Below, one piece after another: positions 3,523 through 31,707 of a stretch of DNA of 64,000 nucleotides. Position 1 is the first letter of the stretch. Each line of letters begins with the position of its first letter. The stretch is from positions 1-64,000 of IMG/VR virus record IMGVR_UViG_3300007538_000020, one strand, 5' to 3'. Below the pieces are notes generated by a model that saw nothing but the letters and a program-made list of their open reading frames with translations, was not told the DNA's origin and ran no database searches. The translations under genes and the position numbers were made by a program. The DNA is from a virus.

Positions 3523-3702
3523 ATGCGTTATTTAAAATTTATACTTTTTATATTAAGTGTGTTTTTATTCTCATATTTAATACTTGTTTTTGTTTATTTT
3601 GATTTTAATGTACTTTCACAAATAGAAAACAGATTAAGTTTTTTAGTTATTTCTGCTTGTATATTATTATATTCATTAATTACTATGGCATTAAATAAAT
3701 AA
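3523..3702 (+). CDS. Two-helix membrane protein, 59 aa
   Basis: ATG to TAA encodes two hydrophobic segments (FILFILSVFLFSYLILVFVYF and FLVISACILLYSLITMAL) joined by a short polar stretch, DFNVLSQIENRL. It lies 12 bases after the preceding peptide. It is holin-sized, but the location among early genes argues against assigning lysis. Confidence 0.5.
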   Translation: MRYLKFILFILSVFLFSYLILVFVYFDFNVLSQIENRLSFLVISACILLYSLITMALNK

Positions 3703-3950
3703 ACCTAACAAAAGAGTTTGTTAGAGCAAAATATAATAAATATTGCCCTAAAATAGAGTGGGTGGATTAAAATAACTCTATTTGAGAATGGACGTTTAGA
3801 TGTAGTATAACGTATATAATTCTGTTCAATAGTTCTTTTTTATATACTTTATTTAATTAATTTTTATTTTGGTTAATTGAACAACGATAATTTTATTTTA
3901 TTTACTAGTTAAAGGTTACTACATACCTTTAATTTTTTAAACTAACTACT
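3703..3950 (+). other. Noncoding leader region with several hairpins
   Basis: No gene was seen. Hairpins include CTAACAAA-AGAG-TTTGTTAG (3705-3724), AAATAGAGT with ACTCTATTT, TGTTCAAT (near 3823) with ATTGAACA (near 3877), and AAAGG with CCTTT near 3912-3931. The motif TTTTGGTTAATT also occurs near 967 beside the other large hairpin, so the two regions may be related leaders. Confidence 0.45.
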
Positions 3951-4133
3951 ATGAAAGAATTAATAGAATTACAAATCTTAATATTAAATAATAAGATTAA
4001 AGCTAATACTGAAGAAATCATTAGCAAAAAACTAACTGATCATCCTTCAAATATTGTTCGATTAAAAGCTAAGAATGATGCTTATAATGAATCTATTTTG
4101 ATGTTTAACCAATTATTGTTAAATCTAAAATAA
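3951..4133 (+). CDS. Unknown 60-aa helical protein
   Basis: The ATG follows TTTAAACTAACTACT, a clear example of the recurring leader. The sequence (LIELQILILNNKIKANTEEII, then NDAYNESILMFNQLLLNL) is predicted all-helical and may form a coiled coil. No known motif. Confidence 0.55.
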   Translation: MKELIELQILILNNKIKANTEEIISKKLTDHPSNIVRLKAKNDAYNESILMFNQLLLNLK

Positions 4134-4142
4134 TTTGATATT

Positions 4143-4478
4143 ATGAAGTCGAATAAATTAGTAATGGTAACTAATATAATTCTTATTGTATTAATTACTT
4201 TATTTTTAAGTTATTGCACTGAAAATAATCACGAAAAGAAAACGATATTAATAACTCCTAATGATACAGAATTATTTATTCTTGATTTAGATAATGATTT
4301 TTTTCTGTTGTTAGAAGATGATTCTATTATATATACTGGTTACGATACCAATATAGTTTTAAATACTATATTAAAAAACAGTGATGATTTTATATTTATT
4401 TCTAATAATTATAAATATTATTATAATTTAAATAAAGATTCAGCTAGAACTGTATTATATAATATCATTAAAAATTAA
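4143..4478 (+). CDS. Putative lipoprotein or membrane-anchored protein, 111 aa
   Basis: The N-terminus MKSNKLVMVTNIILIVLITLFLSYC is a hydrophobic export signal ending in a cysteine. LFLSYC is an imperfect lipobox because the residue before Cys is Tyr rather than Gly or Ala. The remainder is acidic and tyrosine/asparagine-rich. It is probably exported or membrane-anchored; function unknown. Confidence 0.6.
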   Translation: MKSNKLVMVTNIILIVLITLFLSYCTENNHEKKTILITPNDTELFILDLDNDFFLLLEDDSIIYTGYDTNIVLNTILKNSDDFIFISNNYKYYYNLNKDSARTVLYNIIKN

Positions 4479-5897: not shown

Positions 5898-6368
5898 ATG
5901 AGTAAAAATATATGCTTTGCTTATTATGGTGATAATACATTCTTAGGTTGGTATTCTGATACGTTTGGAACTTTAGATAAAAATGTACCTAAAATATATT
6001 CAAATTCTGAAAAACAAATAAGTATTATCAGAAGTAATTTTAATTACAAAATGGATATACTTAAAGGTAAAATAGAAGAACACTTATTTAAAAATTTAAT
6101 TAAATCTAGTAATCATATATTATCTAAATACGATAATATAGAATTACGTATTGTAAAATGTCCTATTTACGATGGCCCTAATCCTAATTTTAATAAAGAA
6201 GATTATATAAAATGGTTAGATACAAAAAAAGAAGGAGAAAAATATAATATACCTACTTGGATTTATGCTAATATAGAAGAAGTAAAAGAATGGGCTAAAA
6301 ATGAACCTACTAGATTTATTGATGTTATAAAATATAATTACAATGAGTTTGTTCAAAAAGAAAATTAA
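5898..6368 (+). CDS. Unknown 156-aa protein
   Basis: ATG 5898 (MSKNICFAYYGDNTFLGWYSD) is preferred. An in-frame GTG at 5874 overlaps the upstream gene and would add eight residues. The product is mixed alpha/beta, with lysine-rich helices and a C-terminal WAKNEPTRFIDVIKYNYNEFV segment. No active-site motif is visible. Confidence 0.6.
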   Translation: MSKNICFAYYGDNTFLGWYSDTFGTLDKNVPKIYSNSEKQISIIRSNFNYKMDILKGKIEEHLFKNLIKSSNHILSKYDNIELRIVKCPIYDGPNPNFNKEDYIKWLDTKKEGEKYNIPTWIYANIEEVKEWAKNEPTRFIDVIKYNYNEFVQKEN

Positions 6369-6438
6369 ACCTGAAGTAATTCACAAAGAAGTTATTGATG
6401 CTAGCAATAATCAAATCACTAATTTAATAAAATATTAA
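6343..6438 (+). CDS. Possible 31-aa peptide
   Basis: A short frame begins inside the end of the preceding gene (ATG 6343) in another phase and encodes MSLFKKKIKPEVIHKEV... to TAA. The overlapping start and basic N-terminus are the only support. Confidence 0.3.
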   Translation: MSLFKKKIKPEVIHKEVIDASNNQITNLIKY

Positions 6439-6500
6439 GTGAGCTAAATAGAACAAATCTTATTATTAACAAACTTTAAACAATTAAAAACGGTATCTTT

Positions 6501-6638
6501 ATGAATCAATTTGTAGAACTAAATGCTTCTCAAGATAATAAAGCAATAAAAGAAAATAAAGTAAAAAACTTGTATAAAAAAGCATTGCTTTATGCTGATG
6601 AACAAGTATTGAAAACAGAAAAAGCTATAAAAATTTAA
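6501..6638 (+). CDS. Small helical protein, 45 aa
   Basis: ATG to TAA encodes MNQFVELNASQDNKAIKENK and then a lysine/leucine-rich helix (NLYKKALLYADEQVLKTEKAIKI). It ends 3 bases before the next gene, consistent with one transcription unit. Function unknown. Confidence 0.45.
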   Translation: MNQFVELNASQDNKAIKENKVKNLYKKALLYADEQVLKTEKAIKI

Positions 6639-6641
6639 AAT

Positions 6642-6860
6642 ATGGAATCACCTATTAAAGGATTGAATTTAAATCCAGCAAGAGAATATAATGAGTCTTA
6701 TGCTGAATATAAAGAGAGAAGATTGAAAAATAAACAGGTGTTATACGGATTTACAGAAAATGTAGTTAATCCTCAAACAGGATTATTTGAAAAAATAAGA
6801 ATTCCTGGTTATTTAAATGTAGGCCCAATATTATTTAAAAAGATATTTGGGGATATGTAA
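6642..6860 (+). CDS. Unknown 72-aa protein
   Basis: ATG start 3 bases after the preceding stop. The sequence MESPIKGLNLNPAREYNESYAEYKERRLKNKQ suggests a charged helix. The second half, GFTENVVNPQTGLFEKIRIPGYLN, looks beta-rich. No known domain recognised. Confidence 0.55.
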   Translation: MESPIKGLNLNPAREYNESYAEYKERRLKNKQVLYGFTENVVNPQTGLFEKIRIPGYLNVGPILFKKIFGDM

Positions 6861-6891
6861 TTTTTAATAATTTTTAAACACTAAATTTTTT

Positions 6892-6987
6892 ATGAAAATA
6901 TTAATGTTAATTTTGTTTGCAATGAGTTTATCTCTTATCTCTTGTACTGATGCTGAAATTGCTAAAATAGGAGGGTATGGAGGATGA
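6892..6987 (+). CDS. Tiny lipoprotein, 31 aa
   Basis: MKILMLILFAMSLSLISC is a classic lipoprotein signal with lipobox LISC (Cys18). Only about 14 residues remain after the lipidated Cys, ending KIGGYGG. Its 3' end overlaps the next frame, which starts at 6977 in another phase. The size and overlap recall Rz1-like outer-membrane lipoproteins, but a partner spanin is not evident here. Confidence 0.55.
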   Translation: MKILMLILFAMSLSLISCTDAEIAKIGGYGG

Positions 6988-7150
6988 ATTTAAAATTGAA
7001 ATGGTAAACTGTGATGGTAGTATTTCTCATACTTGGATAAGTTTAGGTAAAGTATTGAGTGAAGCCAATAGTGATGGTTACTATTTCTACGATAAAGGTA
7101 CTGGTAAACTTATTGAAGTAACTGGTCGCCTTATTATTACAAAATTATAA
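6977..7150 (+). CDS. Unknown 57-aa protein
   Basis: ATG 6977 is preceded by AGGAGGGT, one of the few good purine-rich ribosome-binding sites in the region, and overlaps the end of the tiny lipoprotein gene. The product MEDEFKIEMVNCDGSISHTW... ends KLIEVTGRLIITKL and looks like a compact beta-rich domain. No family recognised. Confidence 0.55.
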   Translation: MEDEFKIEMVNCDGSISHTWISLGKVLSEANSDGYYFYDKGTGKLIEVTGRLIITKL

Positions 7151-7274: not shown

Positions 7275-7316
7275 TTTTTATGCCAGAGTGGTGGAACTGG
7301 TAGACACGCAGGACTT

Positions 7317-8036
7317 TGACTAAAATTGAATAAAATAATTTAAAGTAAATATATGTTTTATAAAAATCATAAACTATATGGCCCTTATAAATCCAAAATA
7401 GATGGAAGAGAAAGAGTTATATTAATATTTGATGATAAAACTAAAAAAACAATTTCTTATCCCAAATATATAGTAGAATGTGAAATAGGTAAAATTTTAG
7501 ATAAAAATGAAACTATTGATCATATAGATGGTAATTTTCTTAATAATAATTTAAATAATCTTAGAATAGTAAATAGAAATGAACATATAAAACAAGATGT
7601 AATTAGAAATAAAGACATTATTGTAAATTGTGTTTATTGTAATAAAGAATTTACTATAAAAGGTTCTAGTATACGTCAGGTAAATAGACGTAATTCAGGA
7701 ACATTTTGTTCTAAATCTTGTTCTGGAAAATACGGATCAGATATACGAAATAATAAGATTAATGAGTTATATATTAATAAAATAGAAATTGATACTTTTA
7801 AGTTAAAAGATTCAATAAAAATTGAGCCTAATATAGGAAACTATATTAGTGGACAACAGAATATCGGTGAAGGCTTAACAGATAATGCTGATGTTAATAC
7901 CGAGGCATAGGGGATAATGCTCCAGCCGTAGAGACTAGATGCTGTTGCACCTAAGTATAATTTATTATATAAGGTGAAGATATAGTCCAGACTACAAACA
8001 AATTACTAATTTGGTAGTGAAAACTATAGTAGTAAG
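7317..8036 (+). mobile_element. Group I intron in tRNA-Leu
   Basis: The intron begins after a T in exon 1 and ends in G (8036), as group I introns do. Core elements lie at its 3' end: P/Q-like TATCGGTGAAGGCTTAA and ATACCGAGG near 7861-7908, R-like AGAGACTAGA near 7930, and a perfect S-type element AAGATATAGTCC at about 7977-7988. It carries an HNH endonuclease frame whose C-terminus overlaps the catalytic core. It is expected to self-splice and to be mobile. Confidence 0.88.
7353..7910 (+). CDS. HNH homing endonuclease of the tRNA-Leu intron, 185 aa
   Basis: An HNH-type nuclease domain occupies roughly residues 50-90. NETIDHIDGNFLNNNLNNLRIVN matches the conserved H-D-G ... N-N-L-x-N-L-R pattern of phage HNH endonucleases. 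Downstream, CVYCNKEF and FCSKSCSGKYG form a possible four-cysteine zinc finger for DNA recognition. It lies wholly within the intron. Its last ~24 codons (GNYISGQQNIGEGLTDNAD) are read from the P/Q region of the ribozyme, so protein and RNA constraints overlap. It probably cleaves intronless tRNA-Leu alleles to promote homing. Confidence 0.88.
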   Translation: MFYKNHKLYGPYKSKIDGRERVILIFDDKTKKTISYPKYIVECEIGKILDKNETIDHIDGNFLNNNLNNLRIVNRNEHIKQDVIRNKDIIVNCVYCNKEFTIKGSSIRQVNRRNSGTFCSKSCSGKYGSDIRNNKINELYINKIEIDTFKLKDSIKIEPNIGNYISGQQNIGEGLTDNADVNTEA

Positions 8037-8149
8037 AAAATCCTGTGAGCAGTAATGTTCGTACGGGTTCGACTCCCGTCTCTGGTACAAGAATCAGCCA
8101 AAAAAAGAGCAACAAAATACATTATAAGAACCATTAAAAGCGTGTTACA

Positions 8150-29603: not shown

Positions 29604-29976
29604 AACGATAGCTGTATATGGCACTTTGAAATCTGATAAAGGTAACAGAAGTGTTATGAGAGGAACTTTAATTGGTAAAGGATTAACCAAAGAAAAATAT
29701 GCTATGTTTGCAAGTGGTATTCCTTATTTGGCTAAAAACATTCCTCAAACAAATATTACAGTAGAATTGTATAAAGTTCCTGTAGATGAAGTAAAATATT
29801 TAGATAGGTTTGAAGGCCATCCTACTTTCTATGAGAGAACACCTATCAAAGTATTGTGTAATGAAGAAGAAGTAGATGCTGATATTTATTTTACAAAAGA
29901 TTTTGAAAAATTCAAATCTGTTGACGAAGTTCAGTATTATACTCAAATTCGTAATATAAGTGATGGAATATTCTAA
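29584..29976 (+). CDS. Gamma-glutamylcyclotransferase-like (AIG2/GGCT) protein, 130 aa
   Basis: YKTIAVYGTLKSDKGN (residues 5-20) matches the substrate-binding Y-G-T-L loop of the AIG2/GGCT fold. ELYKVPVDEVKYLDRFEGHPTFYERTPIKV matches the second conserved block (L-D-x-x-E-G-x-P-x-x-Y-x-R). This family cyclises gamma-glutamyl amines, releasing 5-oxoproline, and is known beside amidoligase and ATP-grasp genes in phage. It overlaps primase upstream and uracil-DNA glycosylase downstream. Confidence 0.85.
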   Translation: MDVTEYKTIAVYGTLKSDKGNRSVMRGTLIGKGLTKEKYAMFASGIPYLAKNIPQTNITVELYKVPVDEVKYLDRFEGHPTFYERTPIKVLCNEEEVDADIYFTKDFEKFKSVDEVQYYTQIRNISDGIF

Positions 29977-31707
29977 TATATATAAAAAATTAATACAAAC
30001 TAATTGGTATAATATTCTGGAAGATTTCTTACTTTCTAAAGATATGGATAAAATAGTATCTCATATTAAAGAAAGAAGTAAACAAACAGATATATATCCT
30101 AAATCAGAAGATTTATTTAAAGCATTTAATTATTTTGATTTCTTTGATTTAAAAGTAGTTATATTAGGACAGGATTAAATATTATTTTTTATTATTTTTA
30201 TAATAAATTATTTATTTGTATATTTGTAGTATGAAAAATACTACAGTAAACCAAATACTAGATTTCCATTCACAAGGAAAAACAAACATTGAAATATTAG
30301 AATTGATTAATGATGATACTATAAGTATAAAAAATATATGCTCTCTTATTAATAGAAAAGGATTAAATAGTAATAAACATAAAGAGATAACAATAACCAA
30401 TGAATTAAATAATTTAATAATTGGAAGTATGTTAGGAGATGGTCATATAACTAAAGAGAAAAACTATAATAGTAAATTATCATTAGCACATTCTATTAAA
30501 CAAGAAAGTTATTTAAAATATAAATTTAATATTTTAAAAAAATATGAATTAGTTAATAAATTTTGTAAATATAAAATTCATAATAATAGATATAAAAATG
30601 GATTTATAGAAGAAGTGAGATTTAAATCAAAAGCTCATCCTATATTTTCTAATTATAGAGATATATTTTATAAAAATAATGTAAAATATATTCCTAATAA
30701 AATAGAAGAGTTAGATGAATTTGGATTATCTATATGGTATTTCGATGATGGAAATAAAACAAAATATGGATATCAATTAAATACTCAAAATTTTACTATA
30801 ACAGATATTAAAAAATTATCATTATTATTAAAAACAAAATTTAATATTAATAATACTATTCATAAAAATAAAACAATTTATATTTTATCAGATTCTAAAG
30901 ATATTTTAACAAATATTTTAAATAAATATTCAATTCCTTGTGTAGATTATAAAATACATAGAAAGACGAGTCCTGTATAAATTGGGTGAATTCGGTGAAA
31001 GTCTAGAAGTAGATAACCCCGAGCCAAGCTAAGTTTAGGTTAAAAGAACTTAGAAGGTGTAACGCATAGTAAATGAGCCTAACAATAATTTTACCACGAG
31101 CGCCCAACATTTTTAATAAAAAATGATGATGTATGCTGAACTGTAGATATAACAATTATGAAACTACAGAATTTAAAGATAAAAAACTTTAAAGATAACA
31201 ACATTGCCATATCATACTCCTAATGTAGCAGATGGTTTATGTTTTAGTTCTAATCTAAAACATATAGTACCACCTAGTCTTAGAAATATTTTAACTGAAA
31301 TGTATAATGATATTTATAATAAAAAACAATTAGATATTAAAGCTAATCCTAATTTGGAATATTTAGCTAAACAAAACGTTTTATTATTAAATACAGCATT
31401 AACAGTTGAAAGAGGTTCGCCTGGTTCTCATACAGAATTATGGAAACCATTTACTAATTATGTTTTAAATAAAATTAGTGATAGAAAAACAGATAATATA
31501 GTAATCTTTTTATTATGGGGAAATAAAGCGAAAGAATATAAACCTATAATAGAAAAAAATAACTTTAATATCATATATGAAGCAGCTCATCCATCTCCAT
31601 TTTCAGCATATAATGGTTTCTTTGGATGTAGACATTTTAGCTCTGTAAATGAAACATTAAGGTTTTATAATGAAAATAGTATTAATTGGATTGATGAAAT
31701 TAATTAA
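29963..31707 (+). CDS. ung: Uracil-DNA glycosylase, split by an intron
   Basis: Exon 1 is 29963-30175 and exon 2 is 31207-31707. Exon 1 ends ...VVILGQD and exon 2 begins PYHTPNVADGLCFSS, so splicing rebuilds the catalytic GQDPYH water-activating loop of family 1 UNG exactly. Exon 2 carries LLLNTALTVERGSPGSH and the DNA-intercalating motif HPSPFSAYNGFFGCRHF. The joined product is about 237 aa, normal for UNG. Without splicing, TAA at 30176-30178 truncates the protein before the active site. UNG would remove uracil from DNA. GTG 29960 is an alternative start. Confidence 0.92.
30176..31206 (+). mobile_element. Group-I-like intron in the UNG gene
   Basis: The 5' boundary follows T30175 and the 3' boundary follows G31206, as in group I introns, and the exons join in frame. 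After the endonuclease frame, elements such as GAATTCGGTGAAAGTCTAG, AACCCCGAGCCAAGC, GAAGGTGTAACGCATAG and CCACGAGCGCCCAAC (about 30988-31110) resemble P/Q/R parts of group I cores. The S element is less clear, with GTAGATATAACA near 31144. Length is 1031 bases. Group I is likely; the subgroup is not assigned. Confidence 0.82.
30231..30980 (+). CDS. LAGLIDADG homing endonuclease of the UNG intron, 249 aa
   Basis: Two LAGLIDADG-type helices are visible: NLIIGSMLGDGHIT and ELDEFGLSIWYFDDGNKTK, each with the acidic metal-binding residue after a glycine or aspartate. They make a pseudo-symmetric single-chain nuclease. The N-terminal ~60 residues resemble a helix-turn-helix (VNQILDFHSQGKTNIEILELI). 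ATG 30231 is preferred over a TTG at 30216. A TATATTTG box (30219-30226), like a Bacteroidetes -7 element, lies just before the ATG, but no -33 box was found. It should cleave intronless UNG alleles. Confidence 0.88.
   Translation: MKNTTVNQILDFHSQGKTNIEILELINDDTISIKNICSLINRKGLNSNKHKEITITNELNNLIIGSMLGDGHITKEKNYNSKLSLAHSIKQESYLKYKFNILKKYELVNKFCKYKIHNNRYKNGFIEEVRFKSKAHPIFSNYRDIFYKNNVKYIPNKIEELDEFGLSIWYFDDGNKTKYGYQLNTQNFTITDIKKLSLLLKTKFNINNTIHKNKTIYILSDSKDILTNILNKYSIPCVDYKIHRKTSPV

Follow-up and report, generated by a model that had tools for sequence, protein, structure and literature searches.

Studies of ancient descent from cyanobacteria to plastids have used the tRNA-Leu(UAA) intron as a marker. 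In phages, the introns known up to 2014 were all located in protein-coding genes, despite the many tRNA genes that phages carry (review by Hausner et al. 2014, PMC3984707), and the many group I introns of crAss-like phages were likewise found in protein genes (Yutin et al. 2021, PMC7886860). Introns in phage tRNA genes were described in the Lak phages and reported as the first of their kind by Devoto et al. 2019 (PMC6784885), whose main text calls them 'enigmatic' and assigns no ribozyme class. A literature search, which most subscription papers lay outside, found no earlier report of a phage tRNA-Leu(UAA) group I intron.

Here we analysed a stretch of phage DNA of 64,000 nucleotides (referred to as the window; positions 1 to 64,000 of IMG/VR record IMGVR_UViG_3300007538_000020), in which a tRNA-Leu(UAA) gene is interrupted. 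Its intron has in common with the cyanobacterial and plastid tRNA-Leu(UAA) introns (IC3, e.g. Anabaena) the insertion site U34|A35, the terminal G, a GAG guide pairing with CUU and the P3-P9 layout. It differs from them in P6 (GGC/GCC against GCC/GGU), in the closing pair of P7 (A-U against C-G), in a 500-nt P1 loop containing an HNH open reading frame (ORF), and in belonging to another clade. We consider it very probable that this is a mobile, self-splicing group I intron, spread by HNH homing and belonging to a phage clade. The mechanism is known; the member is new.

The complete record is a phage genome of 94,981 bases whose terminase, portal and major capsid proteins fall into PHROG families of crAss-like type (phrog_6681, phrog_6547 and phrog_11589). 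The terminase matches crAss-like and other Bacteroidota phages (best match Cellulophaga phage phi14:2, 33.6% over 96%) and the polymerase matches crAss-like phages, in agreement with the initial annotation of a Bacteroidetes-type phage. The same phage carries a second group I intron at 30179-31205, which splits a uracil-DNA glycosylase gene (exons 29960-30178 and 31204-31707; PF03167, E=2e-11 for exon 2) between ..VVILGQD and PYHTPNV... This second intron contains a LAGLIDADG ORF (30216-30980; PF03161, E=6e-34) and a partial ribozyme match (30960-31135, 31 bits).

An interrupted tRNA-Leu(UAA) gene with a covarying group I core

In its ordinary mode ARAGORN missed the tRNA-Leu(UAA) gene in the raw window; in intron-permitting mode it proposed the 720-nt intron at this place unprompted. 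Excision of 7317-8036 left two exons that form a clean class II tRNA-Leu(UAA), called by ARAGORN as tRNA-Leu(taa) of 87 bases (the tRNA body plus one 3' base). The exons pair at 7/7 positions in the acceptor stem and 5/5 in the anticodon stem; the spliced anticodon loop is CTTAAAA, the discriminator is A, a long variable arm is present and CCA is not encoded. U7316 precedes the 5' splice site and G8036 is the last base of the intron, and moving the cut either broke the loop or displaced these U/G boundary bases. The initial annotation had given exactly these intron coordinates and this loop, and had proposed tRNA finding after in-silico splicing as a check; the ARAGORN run and the exon pairing bear it out. 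The features of the locus are as follows.

7282 to 7316, plus strand: 5' exon of tRNA-Leu(UAA), comprising the acceptor 5' strand, D-arm, anticodon 5' arm and C32 U33 U34 (called by ARAGORN after in-silico splicing; pairs with the 3' exon)
7317 to 8036, plus strand: group I intron, 720 nt (ARAGORN; covariance model match)
7353 to 7910, plus strand: intact ORF of 185 amino acids for a putative HNH homing endonuclease (PF13392, phrog_14913)
7816 to 8036, plus strand: ribozyme core (covariance model R1; helix mapping)
7824 to 7826, plus strand: internal guide GAG (sequence, and the invariant GAG of the 33-intron alignment), with predicted P1 pairing
7827-7836/7841-7851: P2
7854-7859/7942-7947: P3
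7864-7869/7898-7903: P4
7873-7874/7893-7894: P5
7904-7906/7925-7927: P6
7933-7937/7983-7987: P7
7948-7957/7968-7976: P8
7991-7995/8029-8033: basal P9, read separately from the 45 pairs counted below
8014-8018/8023-8027: P9
8037 to 8087, plus strand: 3' exon, comprising A35 A36 A37 A38, anticodon 3' arm, variable arm, T-arm, acceptor 3' strand and discriminator A (called by ARAGORN after in-silico splicing)

A covariance model, R1, was built from 33 other short introns at the tRNA-Leu(UAA) site, cyanobacterial introns included and the window left out. It matched 7816-8036 over its full length with 129.7 bits (E=1e-38), and the 3' end of the match falls exactly on the predicted splice site, G8036; the uniformity of this terminal G across the family is by construction, the set having been collected with G there. 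Together with the pseudoknotted P3/P7 core and P4, P6, P8 and P9, this match identifies the insert as a group I intron, as had been proposed. The group I model check named in the initial annotation gave a divided answer, however: R1 matched strongly, whereas RF00028, the general group I model of Rfam, gave 34.3 bits (E=7e-7) in a local search of the window, below the gathering cut-off of 50 bits, at which Rfam finds no intron in the window. With RF00028 run over the whole record of 94,981 bases nothing was found. The curated cut-off is a detection threshold and not a defining property of group I introns, and among four test loci it passes only a cyanobacterial one (L102) and misses the other three (L091, L043 and L215), so the low score reflects a limit of the model. 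Introns at the tRNA-Leu(UAA) site remain unannotated because their RF00028 score falls under the cut-off, and the recovery of only the cyanobacterial locus would explain the silence of the literature.

Of 45 pairs counted in the window, 43 are standard, and all pairs of P3, P4 and P7 are intact; there is no insertion between P7 and P3 such as IA has. Compensatory changes were observed in 34 of 40 pairs in the alignment of the 33 short introns. When the P7 pseudoknot was added, 94.4% of cells paired across the family and 35 of 45 pairs changed on both sides, with P7 kept in 100%; 500 shuffles and slid pairings all fell far short. The covariation test gave the same result when repeated within the window's own clade. 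At basal P9, alignment columns 291/331 hold C-G in 17 rows and U-A in 7, and the window has U-A (7993/8031).

The HNH reading frame in the P1 loop

As the initial annotation had stated, an HNH endonuclease is encoded within the intron: the ORF matches HNH_3 (PF13392, E=3e-7, above cut-off) and phrog_14913 (E=8e-24). Its HNH_3 motif occupies residues 41-78 and is followed by a zinc-finger-like part of the form C-x2-C / C-x3-C. If GAG at 7824-7826 pairs with CUU (C7314 U7315 U7316), putting a U-G pair at the splice site, the P1 loop holds about 500 nt, most of which is the ORF, and P1 itself consists of three pairs; with so short a helix closing so large a loop, efficient splicing may need help. 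The 3' part of the ORF overlaps P2-P6 of the ribozyme and ends in TEA followed by the stop codon, encoded by the P6 motif GAGGCATAG (7904-7912; GAG GCA TAG). The endonuclease ORFs of two other phage introns of the same clade (L220 and L215), which are of other endonuclease types, also end in TEA. Since GAGGCATAG provides the endonuclease stop codon in several clade members, ribozyme and ORF appear to be under a double constraint.

The HNH protein is a predicted homing endonuclease, and an intronless phage allele (L006) has an anticodon region nearly identical to that of the window. The intron might instead splice but be immobile, its ORF being a relic or having another role (e.g. maturase). 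In favour of this, an ORF of at least 120 amino acids is present in 12 of 103 bacterial introns at the same site, among the matches listed, so that the site persists without homing in most bacterial copies. Moreover, close relatives of the HNH protein were found neither in viral contigs nor in phage records, where distant relatives reach 43% at best; a comparison with PDB gave no useful match. The HNH motif is nevertheless intact, with the two family E-values given above, and the change of endonuclease types at the same place within the clade fits active mobility. We regard immobility as unlikely.

Same-site introns and the phylogeny of the ribozyme

Loci of the same kind were searched for with a pattern in which the tRNA-Leu 3' exon comes after a P7 strand; it matched 76 viral contigs and at least 119 times in bacterial genomes. 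A test for complementary exons retained at least 151 loci interrupted by an intron at exactly the U34|A35 position, 48 viral (the window included) and at least 103 bacterial. Phage tRNA genes, formerly believed to lack group I introns, regularly house them. Several ARAGORN isotypes for these introns (Phe, Tyr, Stop and others) were wrong, because other cuts score better, and the exon-pairing test was used in their place. The bacterial loci with both exons paired span many phyla, and tRNA-Leu(UAA) group I introns were seen far beyond cyanobacteria, in genomes and MAGs of Acidobacteriota, Planctomycetota, Bacillota, Pseudomonadota, Bacteroidota, Bdellovibrionota and Chloroflexota (L088-L206). 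The U34|A35 position is the classic one, as first annotated, but its range is far wider than the 'cyanobacterial and other bacterial' introns with which it had been compared. In Bacteroidota, the general tRNA-Leu intron pattern was found in 4 of 198 genomes, one a likely chance match. In Pelagibacter phage HTVC120P, the gap between two annotated capsid CDS (1366-1561) is itself a ribozyme belonging to this family (157.6 bits), so the two capsid proteins are probably one spliced gene.

A first tree of 97 ribozyme cores placed the window with a phage tRNA intron and the DnaB intron of Kolpuevirus 'frurule' (100/99), apart from the cyanobacterial and Bacteroidota tRNA-Leu introns. A search of viral contigs for the P6 signature, taken from the window and one other phage intron (L001), yielded 12 more, so the extra clade members come from viral contigs only. 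In the enlarged tree, built on 205 columns and with unsettled bootstraps, the window is sister (98/85) to two phage introns in tRNAs with anticodon UCA (L217/L220), at 81% identity (over 183 columns for L220). Its clade contains 14 rows (100/99), all from phages, and is so far phage-only as judged from the sequences sampled; none of 395 genomes of Bacteroidota, the bacterial group covered by that search, has the P6 signature.

Two rows of the clade lie in tRNA-Leu(UAA) genes, four in UCA tRNAs (one of them, L210, only tRNA-like) and eight in protein genes, mostly at the P-loop GK(S/T) of DnaB-type or AAA ATPases. The helicase P-loop introns have the same ribozyme clade and P6 signature as the window; that of 'frurule', a crAss-like phage, is 80% identical over 115 nt but has a protein-coding host gene and a GIY-YIG endonuclease. 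The UCA-tRNA introns, whose ribozymes are the nearest to that of the window, likewise cut after position 34 and carry an ORF similarly placed and running into the core, but they sit in a different tRNA, and their endonuclease is of the PD-(D/E)XK type (PF11645; L220 and L048) or is lacking (L210). GIY-YIG endonucleases were found in L001 and L216, and an HNH endonuclease of another type than the window's in L215, where UGA is read as Trp. It is highly probable, as part of the whole explanation, that introns of this clade have transferred between U34 of tRNAs and the P-loops of helicase genes, changing endonuclease type.

The anticodon-UCA phage tRNAs, which would read UGA and may be connected with UGA recoding, lie at 6208-6910 (L048), about 3630-4300 (L217) and about 2100-2830 (L220); the tRNA-like L210, at about 6760-7010, has an 8-bp acceptor. 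Spliced L048 and L217 form a cloverleaf with a long variable arm, and ARAGORN made no call on the spliced UCA-type tRNAs. The 3' exon CAAAACCG of L048, L217 and L210 at first suggested an insertion in the D-loop of tRNA-Trp, a reading that was rejected because the 5' exons of L048 and L217 give a class II fold with anticodon UCA.

The intron could also have been taken, with its tRNA gene, directly from a tRNA-Leu(UAA) intron of a bacterial host, of Bacteroidota or cyanobacterial type. Site and ribozyme family are common to the bacterial introns and the window, introns of the Sediminibacterium type have a similar 3' end and an exon context (GCAGGACTT/AAAATCCTG) like the window's, and other phage introns, e.g. 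those of Lak, do group with those of the host family. Constraining the window to group with rows from cyanobacteria, Chitinophagia or Bacteroidales, however, costs 56-63 log-likelihood units (AU p 0.041, 0.023 and 0.044, respectively), its nearest rows are phage introns in other genes, and the clade's P6 signature was missing from the Bacteroidota genomes searched. The phylogeny of the core against bacterial tRNA-Leu introns, which had been suggested as a check, hence does not place the window among those sampled (AU p 0.02-0.04); direct descent from cyanobacterial or sampled Bacteroidota introns is disfavoured, and we consider such uptake distinctly improbable. Still less credible is a decaying copy that no longer splices, in a dead tRNA gene: the RF00028 score under the cut-off, the 2 of 40 model pairs that are non-standard in the window and the overlap of the ORF with the core would suit it, but P3, P4 and P7 are fully paired, the terminal G is in place, the tRNA exons pair perfectly, the ORF is open and the codon read by this tRNA is the one that the phage uses most for leucine.

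For the family as a whole the picture is different. Phage and bacterial labels change 13 times on the tree, compared with 32 times when the labels are shuffled; starred branches require at least 10 of the 13 changes. The tRNA-Leu introns of the Lak megaphages, which infect Prevotella, have a ribozyme of the window's family at the same U34|A35 site, but unlike the window they group with Prevotellaceae introns (100/100 in both trees), although short bacterial contigs might themselves be phage. Since phage and bacterial introns interleave and Lak groups with Prevotellaceae, exchange is likely across the whole family. The question of transfer between phages and bacteria, raised by the initial annotation, is thus answered differently at the two levels, since the nearest relatives of this particular intron are phage introns. 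In two Lak phages (L003 and L004; MK250029 and MK250020), R1 matches twice within the tRNA-Leu gene at about 870-1610, which apparently carries a group I intron in its D-loop (GGT|AGACACG) in addition to that at U34|A35.

Proposed mechanism and implications

The intron is predicted to splice from the tRNA-Leu(UAA) precursor in the guanosine-dependent manner of group I. In the precursor, the CUU ending the 5' exon would pair with the intron GAG as P1, and the P3-P9 core would fold round the P3/P7 pseudoknot. Guanosine would cut after U34, the freed 5' exon would attack after G8036, and the exons would be joined into a normal tRNA-Leu(UAA). The spliced tRNA would read UUA, which accounts for 75% (plus strand) and 81% (minus strand) of the leucine codons in large ORFs, or 70-80 per 1000 codons. 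Because UUA is the phage's main leucine codon and is read by the interrupted tRNA, loss of splicing would probably cost the phage. The probable target of the HNH protein, whose ORF lies in the P1 loop, is the anticodon region of intronless tRNA-Leu(UAA) genes; repair of the cut would copy the intron in. Other viral tRNA-Leu genes have an insertion at the identical position.

A broader proposal, which we put forward tentatively and hold to be more doubtful than not, is that phages keep their own tRNA-targeting group I lineage, which swaps endonucleases and jumps between U34 sites (Leu-UAA and UCA-type) and helicase P-loops, and also that phages, rather than vertical descent, are a main carrier seeding tRNA-Leu(UAA) introns across bacterial phyla.

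These findings correct the published view that phage introns are confined to protein genes (Hausner et al. 2014, PMC3984707), and they suggest why those in phage tRNAs were missed: the Rfam cut-off and ordinary tRNA finding both fail on them. They also raise the puzzle of what role a splicing tRNA for the commonest leucine codon has during infection. Because this insertion recurs in numerous phages and bacterial phyla, with phage and bacterial copies interleaved, horizontal traffic of tRNA-Leu(UAA) introns via phages becomes directly testable.
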